From positions 8,990,001 through 9,054,000 of the forward strand of contig NC_063154.1 in the NCBI RefSeq assembly GCF_020921035.1: a stretch of 64,000 nucleotides of DNA. Reading direction: 5' to 3'. The DNA comes from Rhodamnia argentea (Eukaryota; Streptophyta; Magnoliopsida; Myrtales; Myrtaceae). The number at the start of each line of letters is the position of its first letter. Positions within the stretch are counted from its first letter, which is position 1. Shown piece by piece: positions 2,717 through 42,981 of this stretch. Position numbers and translations under genes: made by a program. The notes under the pieces were generated by a model, which was not told the origin of the DNA, did no database searches, and saw only the letters and a list, made by a program, of their open reading frames with translations.

Positions 2717-5223
2717 TTATTTGCGTAGTTGGAATTGAAATGCTCTCTTGAACCAAAGCATGGTAATCATCCTCGCAATCCACAATTTTTCGACAATCCT
2801 ATCCATTGCCCGAAAATAGGAGATCCTCCAAGATCGATTGAAATGTAATATACCGCAGAATCCCATAAATGCCACCGCAAAGCCTGATCCCAATCCCGAG
2901 TAAAACCAATTAATAGCAGAGTCACCTTCATTAGATTCATCTTTGCTTGAATTGCCACTATCTCGTCCGTCCGTATCATTATGCTCATCTCCAGGACAAA
3001 CTTTCAAATGAGAAGCTCCGTGAAGTCCGCCGTTGCCGTGATAGATAGATCGATCATCTAGAGTGCTCAATTCATTGCCCGACGGAACACGACTGGATAA
3101 ATTGTTAAAGGAAAGATCCAACCAGCTTAGAAAGTCCAAACTGGATATCCGGAAGGGATCTGACCGGACAGTCTATTATTGGATAGATCCAGCGATTCTA
3201 ATTGTCTCAAGTCGCCGATATCCGGAGGGATCTCTCCAATGAGCTTGTTTCGAGAGAGGTTCGGATTCTGAAGTCTAGCGAGGCTAGTTGACCCTTCCGG
3301 TATCCGCCCTCTAACTCGTTGCTCGAGAGGTCAATGGAAAATAAATAGGGCAGCGTCTCGGTGAATTCTAGGGTTGTTCCTTTTATATTAACCGCAGTGG
3401 AAACCCCCCACGGCACTCTCGCATATGGACTATCAGTGGAATTGGCCCACATCTGAGAGAAGTCGCTAAAACAACTAGGAATGCCTCCAGAGAAGTTGTT
3501 GTTCGCTATGCTTAAATGCTGGAGATAAGGAAAGATGGCATAGCTGCAAAGGGATGTCCCCGTTTAAGTAATTCCTCCCAAGATCGATCATTGCGAACGA
3601 TCTGGAGTGTCGGCCAAATGGAGGTACTCTACCAGTGAACTGATTGTCGCTGACATCCAGGATTATCGGATCTAGCTTCTGTAAACATCTTGGAAGCCCT
3701 CCATTGAAGCCATTCCCTTGTAGGTCCAGAACTGATAATCGCTCAAGACGGCATAGAGAGTATGGTATCTGACCATTTAACTTCTTGACTCCCAATCGAA
3801 TCGAATAAAAATTTGCATGAGACTTCCTCCAACATTGCAGCAGTCTCCCCGACAGTTGGCTCTTAGAGAGATCGAGATAAAGCAATTTGTCCAACGCGCA
3901 TAATGAATTCGGGATGTCCCACGAAGGTTATTTCCAGAAAGTCTGGCTGACCATAACAATGGCATGCTTTTCCCGACAATTCGGGAAATGTTTCCTCTGA
4001 GCATATTGCCTGCAAGACTTATATTTTCCATGTGAGATAAAACGTCAGGTAGCCAATGGGGAACTTCATCTGAGATGCTGGCACTTGACATGCGGATTAT
4101 CGAAATGTTCCTCTGTGTCTGAAGCCAGTTTGGGAATCTCGATCCCACTTTGCAATTTGACATGGAAATCGTCTGAATTTGGAAAGGAGGAACCCGAGAA
4201 GCAGTGACATTCAGGTTACTTCGCCCACAAACCAAAGCACCGTCTTTGGTGTTCGGAAGCTCCCCACTAAAACCGTTATTCCTCAAGCTTAGTACTTGCA
4301 AGTTGCAGAAAATGCTCATGTTTTTCAAAACTTCACCTTCCAGCCTAATTGAAGAGACATCGAGGAATCTAAGCCTCCCGACTATTTCGAAGGACGACAG
4401 TGGGAAACATGCCTCGGAGATCATTATAGCTTAGATCGAGATGTTCGAGTTTGCTGAAGTTTTGAAGCCAGGGAGGAATAGATGAATTGATGAAGTTTCG
4501 ATTCAGATCAAGGAATCTGAGGGAAGTGTAATTGACACGCAGAGAGGCTGAAGCATCTTCCAAACTACATCCCCTCAATTTCAAAGTTTCCAGGGAGGAA
4601 AGCTTGTTGAGAGGACTTAACCATTCTTTACGGTCAAGAAGGGCGACTCGAGACAGGTCCAAGTACTTCAAGTTAGAAAATGTCGACAGTCACCGGAGGT
4701 TCTCCGATTTCATTAGGGTTAGACTAAGATCCAAGTACTGTAAGCTGGAAAGGTTACCAAGTTGATTGGAAATATTCCCATAAAAGCTTGTCCACGAGAG
4801 GTTGAGATATTCCAATTTCCGAAGAGAAGCTAAGGACTCTGGGATTTTTTGGGGTGTGAAAGTGTTGAAGCTCAGGTCTAGATATTTCAGATGCTTCAGT
4901 TCATATAGAGCAGGATGTCTGTTACCTCCCAGACTGCACTCCACTAAGCCATCGCAGGGATTACGGAGATCAAGCTTCGAGACGTGACCGGTCTTCTCAT
5001 CACATTCGACTCCTTCCCACCGGCAACACCCCTCCCTGGTCCATGACTGCAGACGCCCCGAAGGGTCGGTGAGATCCTGCTTGAACTTGAGAAGAGCTTC
5101 CCTCTCAGCACCAATGCAGCTCGCATTCGTTAAGGCTCTGGTTTGACCGAGTTCCAAGGCTTGAATGACAAAGAGTGCCCGCAAGAGCGTAGGCACCAAG
5201 CTAGTGCAGAAGTAGGCCGCCAT
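2717..5223 (-). pseudogene. LRR receptor-like protein (EIX/Cf type), disrupted
   Basis: The minus strand encodes an almost full-length plant LRR receptor-like protein in pieces. ATG at 5223 opens a hydrophobic leader, then the LRRNT domain ([30 protein letters not shown]), many LRRs (KYLDLS, LDLSYNDLRG, LSLRNNGFSGELP, LDLQGNGFNGGLP), and a C-terminal acidic linker, a transmembrane segment near IDWFYSG-type sequence (2880-2930) and a short cytoplasmic tail without kinase. Such proteins are intronless cell-surface immune receptors that signal through SOBIR1-type kinases. The frame is broken by TGA at 4690-4692, where family members usually have Trp (TGG), and by frameshifts near 4415, 3915, 3535, 3300 and 3150. 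With at least six lesions it cannot yield a receptor. Family assignment is firm; the exact subfamily is not. Confidence 0.9.
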
Positions 5224-28068: not shown

Positions 28069-30559
28069 ATGCGACTCGGTGATAACCTTAAATATCAACT
28101 CCTAATGTTCGATTTCATGCGATCAAGCAATGTCACGACCCACTCGGAAAAATATTATTCCTAATGTGGTGACTTAAACCCGAACGTCCAAGTGAAAGAC
28201 ATTGTTAAATAAAGTCATTAGTACATCTTCTATGCACCAAGATTAGTCTAAATCTAAAATACTCATTTATTCATATCCGTACAAACTTAAGGTCATAGCA
28301 GGACCTTAACGGAAGATTCCTGGTTTTTTGTTTTTTGGGTCAGAGAAGATTCCTGGGATCGACATGTGTTAATCCTAACTTTCTAGTATCTACATTTTTA
28401 CATCCGAAAATTACCAAAACTTTAAACGGAAGATTCCTGGGTTTTCAAGTGAGACGTCCACGCCGAAAATCAGGCCGAAATGAGTTGATGGACGTCCACG
28501 CGCGCCTGGCTCGGCGGGTGGGCGCCACGCGCCGTCCAGTGAACCCAACGCACAGGGCCGTAGCTCTGCCGTACGGGGTCCAATTCGAGTGATCTATACG
28601 CGGTAAGGAATCTTATTGGACGAACTACAATTTCAACACGAAGTTGAAGCAGACAGATTGCCGAATGTCTGATTAAATGGAGTCCGAGTTGGGCTGATCG
28701 CTGGCCGGTGCCATCTGCGGCGCAGCTCTCACTTTGCGAGGCTGTTTCTCCCTAACTGTTCAGCCAAAAGGAGCAAAGTCGGAGGCTTTAGGATAGTAAA
28801 GCAATAGGGAATGGAATTTCTTTGCGATCGGTTTTTTAGAGAAATCTCAGTTCTCCGGCGAAACGGTACTGCTAACAGAAAACTCTCCATAGACAACCAA
28901 TACCCAACCACATTGGAGTTTTCTCCTAACATGACCAGCTTTCGGCTTAAGTCCCGACCTCGCGTATCTAACTCCGTTTTTAATAAAGTTTAGTCAACAA
29001 ACACAGCTCACCATTTGTTGCTCCCAGTGATAAGTTAGGTACAACCCGCAGAATATTTAGAGTTTTGCACTTAATCGAGATACGAAGTTTGCGTCCATAT
29101 GTACTATCACGACAGACGTAAAATCGAGTGCTACCGATAAACCTCAGCTAAGCTTTCGACAGAACAATGTATTACGCCAAAATGTCGTGTGTGCAACTGA
29201 AAACTTATAGAGAAGTTAGAGAAACAATGCCAAAAACCATATCGGATACGATTGACCGGGAATTTTCGATAGTTATTAGGATTGATGTTAAAGGATCGTA
29301 GTAAAGGGTCCGATTTTCATTAACTACAGAATCAGATACTACGAAGACTCTCTTAACTGTGCTTTTAGTTCTAAAACTCTCGATCAAACAACTTGACTAG
29401 TTGTTACTAGTGTTGAGCATTGCACAGCTAGATACATCTGGAGCAGAACATATAGAATTATCCATTCAGGGATTGGATAGCTCAGAAACTTTTTTAGAGC
29501 CCGAAATGTATCTAAAATGAGTTTAATTAATCCCCAAAGTTCAATCATATCTTATACCCTTGGGAGTAAGCTGAATTAAATTGACTTTCGCATCCTTCAA
29601 ACTTGGCGAGGCTAAAAACGATATTATCTTGAAGCGGCCAACCGTCCTTAATGCATGCTATTTGTTTAATCATTCGGTCTTTTTATTAAGACGGTTACCA
29701 ATAGTCGCTACCCGTTTGTTGTTTGCCGTTTTATCAAGATGGTTACTGTCATCATCGATACGATTTCATTTGATCCGTTAGCCGTTAGCGTTGTTTATGT
29801 TTGCCTCATTAGCCGATAAATTCCTTTTGTAGTTACCAGATTGATAGCGTAATTATAAAATCAACTAAAGTGAGTTATAATTTGATTGAGCAACATGTGA
29901 TTAACCGCATTTCAATTATAATTACATTTTAGTTGTTCTCTCAAAGAACAAAATCTCACTCTAGTGGCACCATTTTCTATAATTAAACCAGAGTTAAAAA
30001 AAATACAAATTGATTTTTTTTTTGGGTCGGAATACAAATTGAATTTGCAAAGTGTAAATAGCGTTCTTATTTATAAGAAAAAAAAAAGAAGTTATCGGAA
30101 CGATTACATTTTGATATCAAGTGTTCAACATCATATCATCTACCAACGTACTTACATAAAATATCGTTGAAAACTTGCAGTTATGGTCTAAGACATAATC
30201 ACATTAATGCAAACACTTCAATGGATACTTCCGATCCTCTCTTGTGACAATTTGAAAGGCATTCTAATTAATGATGATGGCCTCCTAATTTTTGTCTTTT
30301 TTCCCCATTTCTCACTAGGCAAGTTATTTAGAAAAAAATTCTTTTCTGTTTCCCCTTTCTTGCGCGCAAAAAAATTGATTACAGGGAAAGATTTTGCATT
30401 GTTAACTTTTCTGATTTTTTTGTTTTGCTGATATTAGCAGCATAATTAATAGCTCATGTGGTAGAGTTGACCTTAAATTTTTGACATTTCACTTTGCTTT
30501 GGCTGTAAAAAGTTAAAAACCCACTCCTGTCTCGCTAACTTCTTTGCTGTCTCTAGGAT

Positions 30560-30614: not shown

Positions 30615-30618
<4 letters not shown>

Positions 30619-30827
30619 GGAGAGTAACATACAATGAGTGCCTCCACAACCATGCTGCGAGGATGGGCAAATACACAGTGGATGGCTGCAATGAGTACAG
30701 CCCAAAGAACCCTAGCACTGACCTTCTTTGTGCTGCTTCTTGTTGTCACAAGAACTTTCACAGGAAGGTGACCATCTTCGACCTTGAGATGACTGAAGCC
30801 AGTGGCAACTACAGTACTGGTGGTTAG
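30615..30827 (+). CDS. 70-residue zinc-finger-only ORF of copy A (MIF-like architecture)
   Basis: The nonsense codon leaves a protein containing only the ZF-HD dimerisation finger, the architecture of plant MINI ZINC FINGER microproteins, which lack a homeodomain and can sequester ZF-HD partners. Whether it is made or folds is unknown, and the CAAS substitution argues against a normal zinc site. A stop early in a single-exon transcript may also trigger decay. The second ORF (30831-31184) has its own ATG but would need internal initiation. Confidence 0.4.
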
Positions 30828-31184
30828 AACATGATCACCCCAAAGGAAGAGAGTTTTGGCCTTGAGGTAGCCCTGCCGATGCTCAACGCCGGTGGAGAGG
30901 AGGAGAGGTTGAACCAGCCGGTCGCACCGGCACAGCCGGAGGACAAGCAGAGGAGGCGCAAATCCAAATTCACAGACGAGCAGGTCGACCAGATGCGAGC
31001 TTTTTCCGAGAGGCTGGGTTGGTCGATGAGGGATTGCACCCGGGCGGAGGAGATTAAAAGGTTTTGTGCCAACATGGGCATCAGCTGGACGGTGTTCAAG
31101 ACGTGGCTGCACAACAACAAGAAGCATTATGGTCGTGGACCTAGCTCTAAGAAAAATCGGTCCTCCGCAAGGGACAATATCTGA
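30615..31184 (+). pseudogene. ZF-HD homeodomain paralogue A, split by one nonsense codon
   Basis: 190 codons run in one frame from ATG 30615 to TGA at 31184, with a single TAG at 30825-30827 where copies B, C and D read CAG (GGQN). This is a C-to-T nonsense change. The 5' part holds the ZF-HD dimerisation finger ([22 protein letters not shown]-like KNFHRK); the 3' part holds an otherwise well-preserved homeodomain (KSKFTDEQVDQMRAF to [15 protein letters not shown]). The finger itself has changed: LLCAASCCH replaces CAACxCH, removing one expected Cys ligand position but adding a neighbouring Cys. AATAAA lies at 31314-31319. As a transcription factor it is broken, but two ORFs remain open. Confidence 0.85.
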
Positions 31185-34449: not shown

Positions 34450-34705
34450 TTCCGAATGGCAATGGATCCCCTATTGCAATGTTAGGGGTGACATTGATCA
34501 AATCGGGCCGTCCAAATCAAAATGGACGGCCTGATTTGATCCATGTCACCTCTTGAAAAAGGATCGGGGGGGGGAGAGGAATTTTGAGCGGGAATTTTTA
34601 AAATTTTGAAAATGTGACATGGATCAAATCAAGCCGTCCATTTTGATTTGGACGGCCCGATTTGATCGGTGTCACCCCTAATATTGCAGGGGATCTGGAT
34701 CCCTC
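34450..34705. mobile_element. Palindromic MITE upstream of copy B
   Basis: The 256-bp insert is flanked by ccgaatcctc on both sides (34440-34449 and 34706-34715). Paralogous sites in A, C and D lack it. Its arms (ggatcccctattgcaatgtt, aggggtgacattgatc, aatcgggccgtccaaatc) form a near-perfect hairpin. The perfect 10-bp duplication favours a Mutator-type MITE. Confidence 0.85.
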
Positions 34706-34921
34706 CCGAATCCTCTCTTGTAACAATTTCAAAGGCATCCTAATTAATGATGATGACCTCCTAATTTTTGTCTTCTTTTCCCGTTTCTCACTAGGCAAGT
34801 TATTATGGAGAGATTTTGCATTGCTAACTTTTCTAATTTGGTTTGCCGATATTAGCAGCATAATTAATAGCTCATGTTGTAGAGTTGGCCTTAAATTTAT
34901 GACGTTTCACTTTGCCTTGGC

Positions 34922-34996: not shown

Positions 34997-35001
<5 letters not shown>

Positions 35002-35560
35002 GAGAGTGATATACAATGAGTGCCTCCACAACCATGCTGCGAGGATGGGCAAATACATGGTGGATGGCTGCAGGGAGTACTGCCCAAAGAACCCTAACAC
35101 TGACCTCCTTTGTGCTGCTTGCGGTTGTCACCGGAACTTTCACAGGAAGGTGACCATCTTCGACCTTGAGATGACTGAAACCAGTGGCAACTACAGTCCT
35201 GGTGGTCAGAACATCATCACCCCGAAAGAAGAGAGCTTCGACCTTGAGGTAGCCTTGCCGATGCTCGACACCGGCGGAGAGGATGAGAGGTCGAACCAGC
35301 TGGTCACATCGGCACAGCAGCATAAGATAAAGCCTGAATCTGAATTCATGGACGAGCTGGTCGACCAGATGCGAGCTTTTTCTGAGAGGCTGGGGTGGTC
35401 GACGAGGTACCGCACCCGGGAGGATGAGATTAAAGGGTTTTGTGCCCACATGGGTATCAGCAGGACGGTGTTCAAGACGTGGCTGCACAGCTTTACTAAT
35501 AATTATGGTCGTGGATCTAGCTCTAAGAAAAATCGTTCCTCGGCGAGGGACAAGATCTGA
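34997..35560 (+). CDS. ZF-HD protein copy B, open but with a degraded homeodomain
   Basis: 187 residues from ATG 34997, intronless as is usual for the ZF-HD family, which are plant transcription factors that dimerise through a C3H-type finger. The finger is intact ([36 protein letters not shown], residues about 6-51). The homeodomain has lost the basic arm: the D sequence KKQRRRKSKFTDEQ reads [13 protein letters not shown], and the helix 3 end WLHNNKKHY reads WLHSFTNNY. These sites contact DNA in homeodomains, so B may dimerise but bind DNA poorly; that is inference. A polyadenylation-like AATAAA is at 35730-35735. The nearest full relative in the window is D. Confidence 0.8.
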
Positions 35561-38467: not shown

Positions 38468-38533
38468 AATGACTTTTTATGAAAAAATTTACCTTTTTGT
38501 TTCCCCTCTCTTGCATGCTGGAAAAAATTTGAT

Positions 38534-38963
38534 GGCTTAAGTACACCCCAAGTGTCATAAGTTGTGTACGGTGCTCACTTTAGTGCCAAAACTTTCAAAT
38601 CGATCACTTTAGTGCTAAGTTTTTATAACTTTGATCACTTAAGTGCCAACTTCTTTTAAAAACGATCACTTTAGTGCCAAAGCTAACGTGGCTTGCCAAA
38701 AATTCGACACGTGGTATTTTTTTTATTAATATTTGAAATGACGTGGCTCGGTAAATTTGACACTAAAGTGATCGTTTTTAAAAGAAGTTGGCACTTAAGT
38801 GATCGAAGTTACAAAAACTTAGTACTAAAGTGATCGTTTTGAAAGTTTTGGCACTCAAGTGATCGAAGTTACAAAAACTTAGCACTAAAGTGATCGATTT
38901 GAAAGTTTTGGCACTAAAGTGAGCGCCGTACACAACTTATGGCACTTGGGGTGTACTTAAACC
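38534..38963. mobile_element. Mutator-like foldback element in the copy C promoter
   Basis: A 430-bp insertion that is almost entirely inverted arms, ggcttaagtacacccca on the left and its near complement on the right. They are filled with repeats of cactttagtgcc and agtgatcgaagttac. Flanks aaaatttgat and aatatttgat differ at one base. The right arm has an extra direct duplication (about 38800-38920). Confidence 0.85.
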
Positions 38964-39132
38964 AATATTTGATTATAGGGAGAGTTTTTGCATAACTTTT
39001 CTGATTTTGGTTGCAGATATTAGCAGCATAATTAGTAGTTCATGTCGTAGAGTTGACCTTAAATTTATGACATTTCTCTTTGATTTGGCTGTAAATACCA
39101 CTCCCGTCTTGCTCTCCTCTCCAGTGTCTAGG

Positions 39133-39175: not shown

Positions 39176-39270
39176 CGCAGAGAGTGACATGCAATGAGTG
39201 CCTCCACAACCATGCTGCGAGGATGGGCAAATACATGGTGGATGGCTGCAGAGAGTACAGCCCAAAGAAC

Positions 39271-39286
39271 CCTAGCAGGCTAGCAC
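39271..39286 (+). other. hAT-type excision footprint in copy C
   Basis: Where A and D read CCTAGCAC once, C reads CCTAGCAG followed by GCTAGCAC. This is a duplicated 8-bp target in which the two bases at the junction have changed to their complements (C to G on each side). That is the pattern left by Ac/hAT excision. The eight extra bases cause a frameshift. Confidence 0.8.
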
Positions 39287-39320
39287 CGACCTCCTTTGTG
39301 CTGCTTGTGGTTGTCACAGG

Positions 39321-39900
39321 TAGGGGTGAGCAAATCGGACCGCTCGAACCAGGACCGCCCGGACCGGACCGGGACCGGTGGTCCGGTTCCCGGTTCTAGA
39401 GGAAGCGGTCCGGTTCCCGATTCTAGGGTCCGCTAGGATCGGACCGATCGAATTTTTTTTTTTTTATCAAGAAAACTCCATGCACATGGAGTTTTCTCGA
39501 TTTTGCCTTTTTAGTCCCCAAACAAAATCCTCATCTCGATTTTGCCTCGGTCGGTCCCTGGGTCATTTTTGACCCAAAGGGAGATCATTTTTGCTTGAAT
39601 CCCATATGCATTTTGGAAATAATCTTGCAAAAAGTTCTCAACTTTGCCTTGAAAGACCCATTTTAGGAAATGAACTTGAAATTTTTTAATGTCCAGTCTC
39701 TATATTTTCTAGATCGGAACCGTCCAAAAATGGTACAATTTTTTTTTTTTTTGGCATGTGTTCAATCCAATAGAACCGCCCGGGAACCGGACCGGACCGG
39801 TGGTCCGGTTCCCGGTTCCGGAAAATTGAGAACCGGAACCACCGGTCCGGTTCTCGGTTCTTGAGGGGAACCGGACCGGACCGGGAACCGATCACCCCTA
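39321..39900. mobile_element. hAT non-autonomous element inside copy C
   Basis: 580 bp with termini taggggtgagc and the complement of gatcaccccta (10 of 11 identical). Flanked by a perfect 8-bp duplication, gtcacagg (39313-39320 and 39901-39908). Inner arms are arrays of ccggttccc/ggaccgg units. The 8-bp duplication and the terminal motif are diagnostic of hAT. No transposase frame is present. Confidence 0.95.
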
Positions 39901-40798
39901 GTCACAGGAACTATCACAGGAGGGTGACCGTCTTCGACCTTGAGATTGAGGAAGCCAGTGGCAACTACAATCCTGGTGGTCAGAACATGATCACCCCAAA
40001 AGAAGAGAGTTTCTACCTCGAGGTTGCCCTGTGGATGCTCAACGCTGGTGGAGAGGAGGAGAGGTTGAACCAGCCGGTTGCACCAGCACAGCAGGAGAAG
40101 ATGAAGAGGCCCAAATCCAAATTCACAGATAAGCAAATCGACCAGATGCGAACTTTTTCTGAGAGGCTGGAGTGGTCGACCAGGGATCGCAACCGGGAGG
40201 ATGCGATTAAAGAGTTTTGCGCCCACATGGGCATCAGCACGACTGTGTTCAAGACGTGACTGCGCAACAACAAGAAGCATTATTTGAGGCATTGTGTATG
40301 TAGAAAAGAGTGAATGCATCTCGTTAGGTAAGGCCTCAGTTTATCGTAATTTTCTTTTTCGTGATATTTCCTGCTCAGCTTTTCCTTCCTATGTTCTCAG
40401 TTCCTTTTCAAGCGAATAAAGAATCTCAGCTTTTTCGTTAATCAAATGCGTATAAATGTGCACAGCACAATCGCAACTTACCAAAGTGCGACCTCAACAA
40501 GATTTTCAGATGATCGCTTTTGCCCCAGATTTAAACTAATAATGAGTGTGTCGTTATATTTACTAAATATAACTTAACTATTCCCCATCATAAGTAGGTC
40601 GTTCCCTTCCATAATCACGTCCACTAGATGATAATGGAACGAGAAAACAAGTAGAACAACATGAAGATCAAGAAGGAGATAAAACTCAGAGAAAGTGCCG
40701 TGATTTATAACCCTTGATCAGTGTTCTGATATCTTGTTAGACAAATCTTATTCCTCCAAAAACTTAATATGTTAAGGAACCTGTCAAAGTTTGTGCCA

Positions 40799-42411: not shown

Positions 42412-42981
42412 ATGCAGAGAGTGACATACAATGAGTGCCTCCACAACCATGCTGCGAGGATGGGCAAATATATGTTGGATGGCTGCAGTGAGTACAGCCC
42501 AAAGAACCCTAGCACTGACCTTCTTTGTGCTGCTTGTCGTTGTCACAGGAACTTTCACAGGAAGGTGGCCATCTTTGACCTTGAGATGACTGAAGCTAGT
42601 GGCAACTACATTACTGGTGGTCAGAACATTATCACCCCAGAGGAAGAGAGTCTCGACCTCGAGGTAGCCCTGCCGATGCTCGACGCCGGCAGAGAGGAGG
42701 AGAGGTTGAACCAGCTGGTCGCACCGGCACAGCCGGAGAAGAAGCAGAGGAGGCGCAAATCCAAATTCACAGACGAGCAAGTCAACCAGATGCGAGCTTT
42801 TTCCGAGTGGCTGGCGTGGTCGACGAGGGACCGCACCCGGGCGGAGGAGATTAAAGAGTTTTGTGCTAAAATGGGCATCAGCTGGACAGTGTTCAAGACG
42901 TGGCTGCACAACAACAAGAAGCATTATGGTCGTGGATCTAGCTCTAAGAAAAATTGTCTCTCGTCGAGGGACAAGATCTGA
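42412..42981 (+). CDS. Zinc-finger homeodomain protein (copy D), intact
   Basis: Plant-specific ZF-HD transcription factor of 189 residues in one exon, expected to act in the nucleus as homo- or heterodimers. Residues 6-51 form the dimerisation finger (C9, H13, C25, C39, C42, C44, H45, H49; motif [15 protein letters not shown]). A linker of acidic and neutral residues follows. The homeodomain spans about 113-171, with a basic arm RRRKSKFTDEQ and a recognition helix ending VFKTWLHNNKKH (Trp164). The tail is Ser/Lys-rich. It is shorter than most ZF-HD proteins. The TATA box is at 42344 and AATAAA at 42152 bases plus one kilobase downstream, that is 43152-43157. It is the last and best preserved member of a four-copy tandem array and probably the only one still able to bind DNA normally. 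I cannot assign an orthologue number. Confidence 0.92.
   Translation: MQRVTYNECLHNHAARMGKYMLDGCSEYSPKNPSTDLLCAACRCHRNFHRKVAIFDLEMTEASGNYITGGQNIITPEEESLDLEVALPMLDAGREEERLNQLVAPAQPEKKQRRRKSKFTDEQVNQMRAFSEWLAWSTRDRTRAEEIKEFCAKMGISWTVFKTWLHNNKKHYGRGSSSKKNCLSSRDKI

Follow-up and report, generated by a model that had tools for sequence, protein, structure and literature searches.

When a hAT transposase cuts beside its element, each chromosome end is left as a hairpin (PMC5873905, PMC1978519, PMC3499496), and the resulting footprints have at their centre the complement of the element-adjacent base (PMC5873905). The maize germinal Ac footprint allele pho1;2a'-m1.1 is tabulated with the target duplication AGCCCAGG and the insertion CTGCCCAG (PMC5029887 Table 4); when computed from this target, the insertion equals the site duplicated with both junction bases complemented. 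Its sister m1.2, the other of the two alleles, carries a 5-bp insertion (PMC5029887). Forms were also computed for the 17 Ds footprints of Arabidopsis given in PMC1978519 Table 1. The complement of one flanking base was found in 14/17 (left base complemented and right base lost in 11, the reverse in 3), and both bases were complemented in 0/17. Exonic footprints of +7 or +8, out of frame, are described for dTph1 in PhDEF in mutant flowers of petunia (PMC10827313). Among 94 putative DNA-transposon excisions reported in rice, just two duplicates were left in 8, the rest having deletions, filler or both (PMC4423477). The both-complemented form is one known outcome among several.

The 8-bp gain in a tandem ZF-HD array

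The window analysed is a stretch of 64,000 nucleotides (contig C5, 8990001-9054000) from a 346.7-Mb, 74-contig assembly; coordinates below are those of the window. ZF-HD genes are a plant family, and one ZF-HD gene is present in four tandem copies, A-D, at ~30.6, 35.0, 39.2 and 42.4 kb. The features of the array are as follows.

30615-31181, + strand: paralogue A; site CCTAGCAC at 30711-30718; internal TAG at 30825
34997-35560, + strand: paralogue B; frame open; site CCTAACAC
39178-39320, + strand: copy C, 5' part; ZF-HD pseudogene with start codon lost and an 8-bp frameshift
39271-39278, + strand: left 8-bp target-site copy, last base complemented (CCTAGCAG); from sequence, paralogue alignment and computed form
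39279-39286, + strand: right 8-bp target-site copy, first base complemented (GCTAGCAC); from sequence, paralogue alignment and computed form
39909-40289, + strand: copy C, 3' part; in-frame TGA, then a 94-column alignment gap
42412-42981, + strand: paralogue D; frame open; site CCTAGCAC at 42508-42515

The Pfam model ZF-HD_dimer matched B (1.5e-21), D (6.2e-21), A as far as its first stop (3.8e-19) and the 5' piece of copy C (39184-39318, 8.8e-10). The 3' piece of copy C (39909-40256) gave no match in the Pfam search, which reported no homeodomain model for B and D. Searching the genome at the DNA level with 39184-39318, 135 bases of the copy C exon, returned at least 4 places, the four copies only among the matches listed. 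The copy D protein gave 27 matches to the genome (counted per exon), more distant ZF-HD genes among them. No further gene copies were found in the 30 kb on either side of the window (E 1e-3; protein E 1e-2).

The original prediction placed a hAT excision footprint at 39271-39286 on the + strand, and the 16 bases were located there as CCTAGCAGGCTAGCAC, i.e. CCTAGCAG followed by GCTAGCAC. Aligned in turn with A, B and D, copy C showed a clean gain of exactly 8 bp that is private to it. The paralogues had been said to share the site CCTAGCAC; this holds for A (30711) and D (42508), two of the three, and fails for B, where CCTAACAC is a one-base exception. By computation, the 16 bases equal an 8-bp target duplication with both junction bases turned to their complements, as had been predicted. 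At 39287, the first base past the 16-mer, copy C has C where all three paralogues have T; this difference is separate and lies outside the footprint.

The gain sits in the ZF-HD exon and shifts its frame. In the protein, NPS are the last residues before the frame is lost, and the zinc finger resumes with its second half in a different frame; in A, B and D, without the 8 bp, the zinc finger is read through in frame. Across 20 loci from the 27 protein matches, the loop from DGC to CxxC varies in length and is in frame in intact genes. The empty state was taken as ancestral because 3/3 near paralogues are without the 8 bp and the loops of distant ZF-HD genes are in frame.

Copy C carries other lesions. 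There is no ATG at the beginning of its frame, and the TGA of its 3' part stands where the three paralogues have TGG. The 8 bp alone would be predicted to break the frame, yet they cannot be assigned as the cause of gene loss. The TAG of paralogue A is in frame and interrupts what would be a long ZF-HD frame, so that A as well as C, two of the four copies, appears broken.

Chance level of the footprint form

The bare pattern, an 8-bp repeat with both junction bases complemented, occurred 3 times in the window and 2 times after a low-complexity filter. With the same filter, 60 dinucleotide shuffles gave a mean of 1.1 (sd 1.1, max 5). The window count is at chance level; the pattern by itself therefore carries no weight, and the bare motif was rejected as evidence. 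About one chance occurrence is expected per 64 kb here, so a scan for footprints has to be backed by an alignment to the empty site. The evidence is that the form of the putative footprint falls on a copy-specific 8-bp gain in the paralogue alignment.

In alignments of the tandem units, 187 distinct indels were counted, of which 70 measure 5-20 bp and 6 measure 8 bp; these alignments overlap and some are ~70% identical, so that indels may be counted twice and some gaps misplaced. The footprint form was present in 1/70 indels of 5-20 bp, the copy C gain, and in 0 of the remaining 69.

The exact 16-mer occurred 7 times in the assembly, and the pattern read backwards 0 times. Inspected by eye, the other six occurrences lie in unrelated sequence, four of them within copies of one repeat; a common origin with copy C was rejected on their unrelated flanks. 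In these four repeat copies (loci L001, L005, L006 and L007, near 1501), CCTAGCAGGCTAGCAC follows TTTTTCTCC.

Origin of the gain in copy C

We assign a probability of about 0.9 to the 8 bp in copy C being the scar of a hAT element that inserted and excised, as judged from one genome. An element of the hAT superfamily would have entered copy C at CCTAGCAC, within its zinc-finger exon, duplicating those 8 bases, and later excised, its transposase leaving the chromosome ends as hairpins. In the hairpin, the terminal target base would leave with the element and its partner would be carried over, giving the complement in its place. Nicking of the hairpins near the tip would then yield CCTAGCAG from the left end and GCTAGCAC from the right end, and joining of the ends without further loss would produce CCTAGCAG plus GCTAGCAC and the 8-bp frameshift. 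In the simplest opening of the hairpins, the one-base G and C overhangs could pair and leave a 7-bp gain; a gain of 8 bp needs both to be completed.

The target preference of hAT elements is nTnnnnAn, only half of which is matched by CCTAGCAC, a point against this assignment. P-element type transposons likewise produce 8-bp duplications. A hAT footprint is a gain near the 8-bp hAT target duplication over the empty site, in which the bases flanking the departed element are complemented, lost or palindrome-extended; the gain here is exactly 8 bp over A, B and D, with both bases complemented and the empty state taken as ancestral from the near paralogues (3/3) and the in-frame loops of the distant ZF-HD loci.

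Excision is supported because the same form is published for a maize Ac allele and the rival explanations need extra coincidences. That this exon also houses a resident hAT-like element, itself flanked by an 8-bp duplication, counts in favour too. As in pho1;2a'-m1.1, the gain is exonic, is 8 bp long, presents the target site twice with both junction bases complemented and causes a frameshift; unlike that case, where the parental Ac allele is known, the element in copy C is one that we infer (PMC5029887). The Arabidopsis Ds footprints are alike in that a flanking base is represented at the joint by its complement (14/17), and unlike in that only one of the two bases is complemented, the second being lost; they derive from an atypical Ds insertion that lacked matching target copies at its two flanks (PMC1978519). 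The petunia dTph1 alleles are also exonic gains of +7 or +8 nucleotides and out of frame, and they come from an element active in living plants, with revertant flowers carrying +6 or wild type, whereas copy C would hold one event in an assembled pseudogene (PMC10827313). The chemistry named by the original prediction, that of Ac/hAT excision, thus agrees with the both-complemented product and with the form of the maize Ac allele (PMC5029887), and its claim that a transposon entered and left the exon is a reading that this one genome supports.

The gain is most likely a known kind of scar, a hAT excision footprint of textbook chemistry in a pseudogene copy. A literature search for hAT excision footprints together with frameshift, paralogue and target site duplication returned no paper; published cases may nevertheless exist. 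A departed transposon would be readable from one plant assembly where, as here, tandem paralogues supply the empty site.

Under replication slippage, the pseudogene would first have acquired a plain tandem duplication of 8 bp, whose junction CC later mutated to GG. Short exact tandem duplications do exist here, one of the 70 indels being a perfect 7-bp tandem (CCGTTAG, 29775-29781 in unit A, absent from the aligned unit), and copy C has drifted at 42 of the 617 sites that are the same in A, B and D, with the neighbouring base 39287 changed too. The explanation is nonetheless very unlikely: C must have become G at both of the adjacent junction bases and nothing must have changed in the remaining 14, and C/G exchange on the C branch was counted at 3 of 292 C/G sites, which squared is ~1e-4 if the changes are independent.

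A staggered double-strand break of some other cause, filled in so that 6 bases were duplicated and joined with GG as filler, is highly improbable. The total must reach 8, and both filler bases must be the complements of the flank (a chance of 1 in 16). When 8 bases were inserted at random in the 27 bases around the site, the observed string being entered with the paralogues' base at 39287, the both-complemented product resulted in 121/2,000,000 trials; filler as such is reported at repaired excision sites in rice (PMC4423477).

An assembly or sequencing error within one copy of the array, which consists of four similar copies and was judged from the assembly, can be practically dismissed: beyond the 8 bp, copy C differs from the other copies by 7 to 10 substitutions in ~130 aligned exon bases and by 14-17% past the resident element, enough to keep the copies apart, and mixing of copies is excluded because the 8 bases are absent from every paralogue.

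The resident hAT-like element and neighbouring elements

Copy C is interrupted between its two parts by a resident element, with the following features.

39313-39320, + strand: left target duplication of the resident element, GTCACAGG; from sequence
39321-39900, no strand assigned: resident non-autonomous hAT-like element, 580 bp, TIR TAGGGGTGA; from duplication and TIR
39901-39908, + strand: right target duplication of the resident element, GTCACAGG; from sequence

The TIRs of hAT elements begin with (C/T)A. Those of the resident element are short, begin in this way and match at 10 of their 11 first bases. The target duplication is a perfect 8 bp, and its site is single in the empty paralogues, as GTCACAGG in D, GTCACAAG in A and GTCACCGG in B. 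A TIR start of CA is listed for hAT in PMC4423477 (Table 1).

The distance between this element and the footprint had been given as about 35 bases; 34 bases lie between the end of the 16-mer (39286) and the first base of the element (39321), which begins 42 bases from the footprint junction at 39278/39279. hAT elements probably inserted on two occasions into this one short exon. That the same element left CCTAGCAC and re-entered the exon at GTCACAGG, 42 bases away, is unlikely; if this local hop were true, copy C would record a complete short-range transposition.

No other copies of the resident element were found in the window or in the 30 kb on either side (E 1e-3). The window was scanned for a second hAT-like element of 80-6000 bp with a perfect 8-bp duplication and TIRs matching at 9 or more of 11 bases and starting with (C/T)A. 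A single further candidate, which was A+T-rich, emerged and was rejected, 5 mononucleotide shuffles having given 0 or 1.

Two other elements were observed in the array. Upstream of copy C, an inverted-repeat element occupies 38535-38965; its arms (38533-38675 and 38824-38964) are 92% alike, its ends read GG(C/T)TTAAGTACACCCC, and ATTTGAT flanks it on both sides. An insertion at 34451-34706 in unit B, absent from D, has inverted ends (TAGGGGTGAC within a longer inverted repeat) with CGAATCCTCT repeated at both flanks. From this 10-bp duplication we take it to resemble a Mutator-type MITE. Elsewhere in the window, a leucine-rich-repeat receptor-like protein, named by eye from the list of open reading frames, is present as fragments in several frames at 2717-5223 on the - strand.
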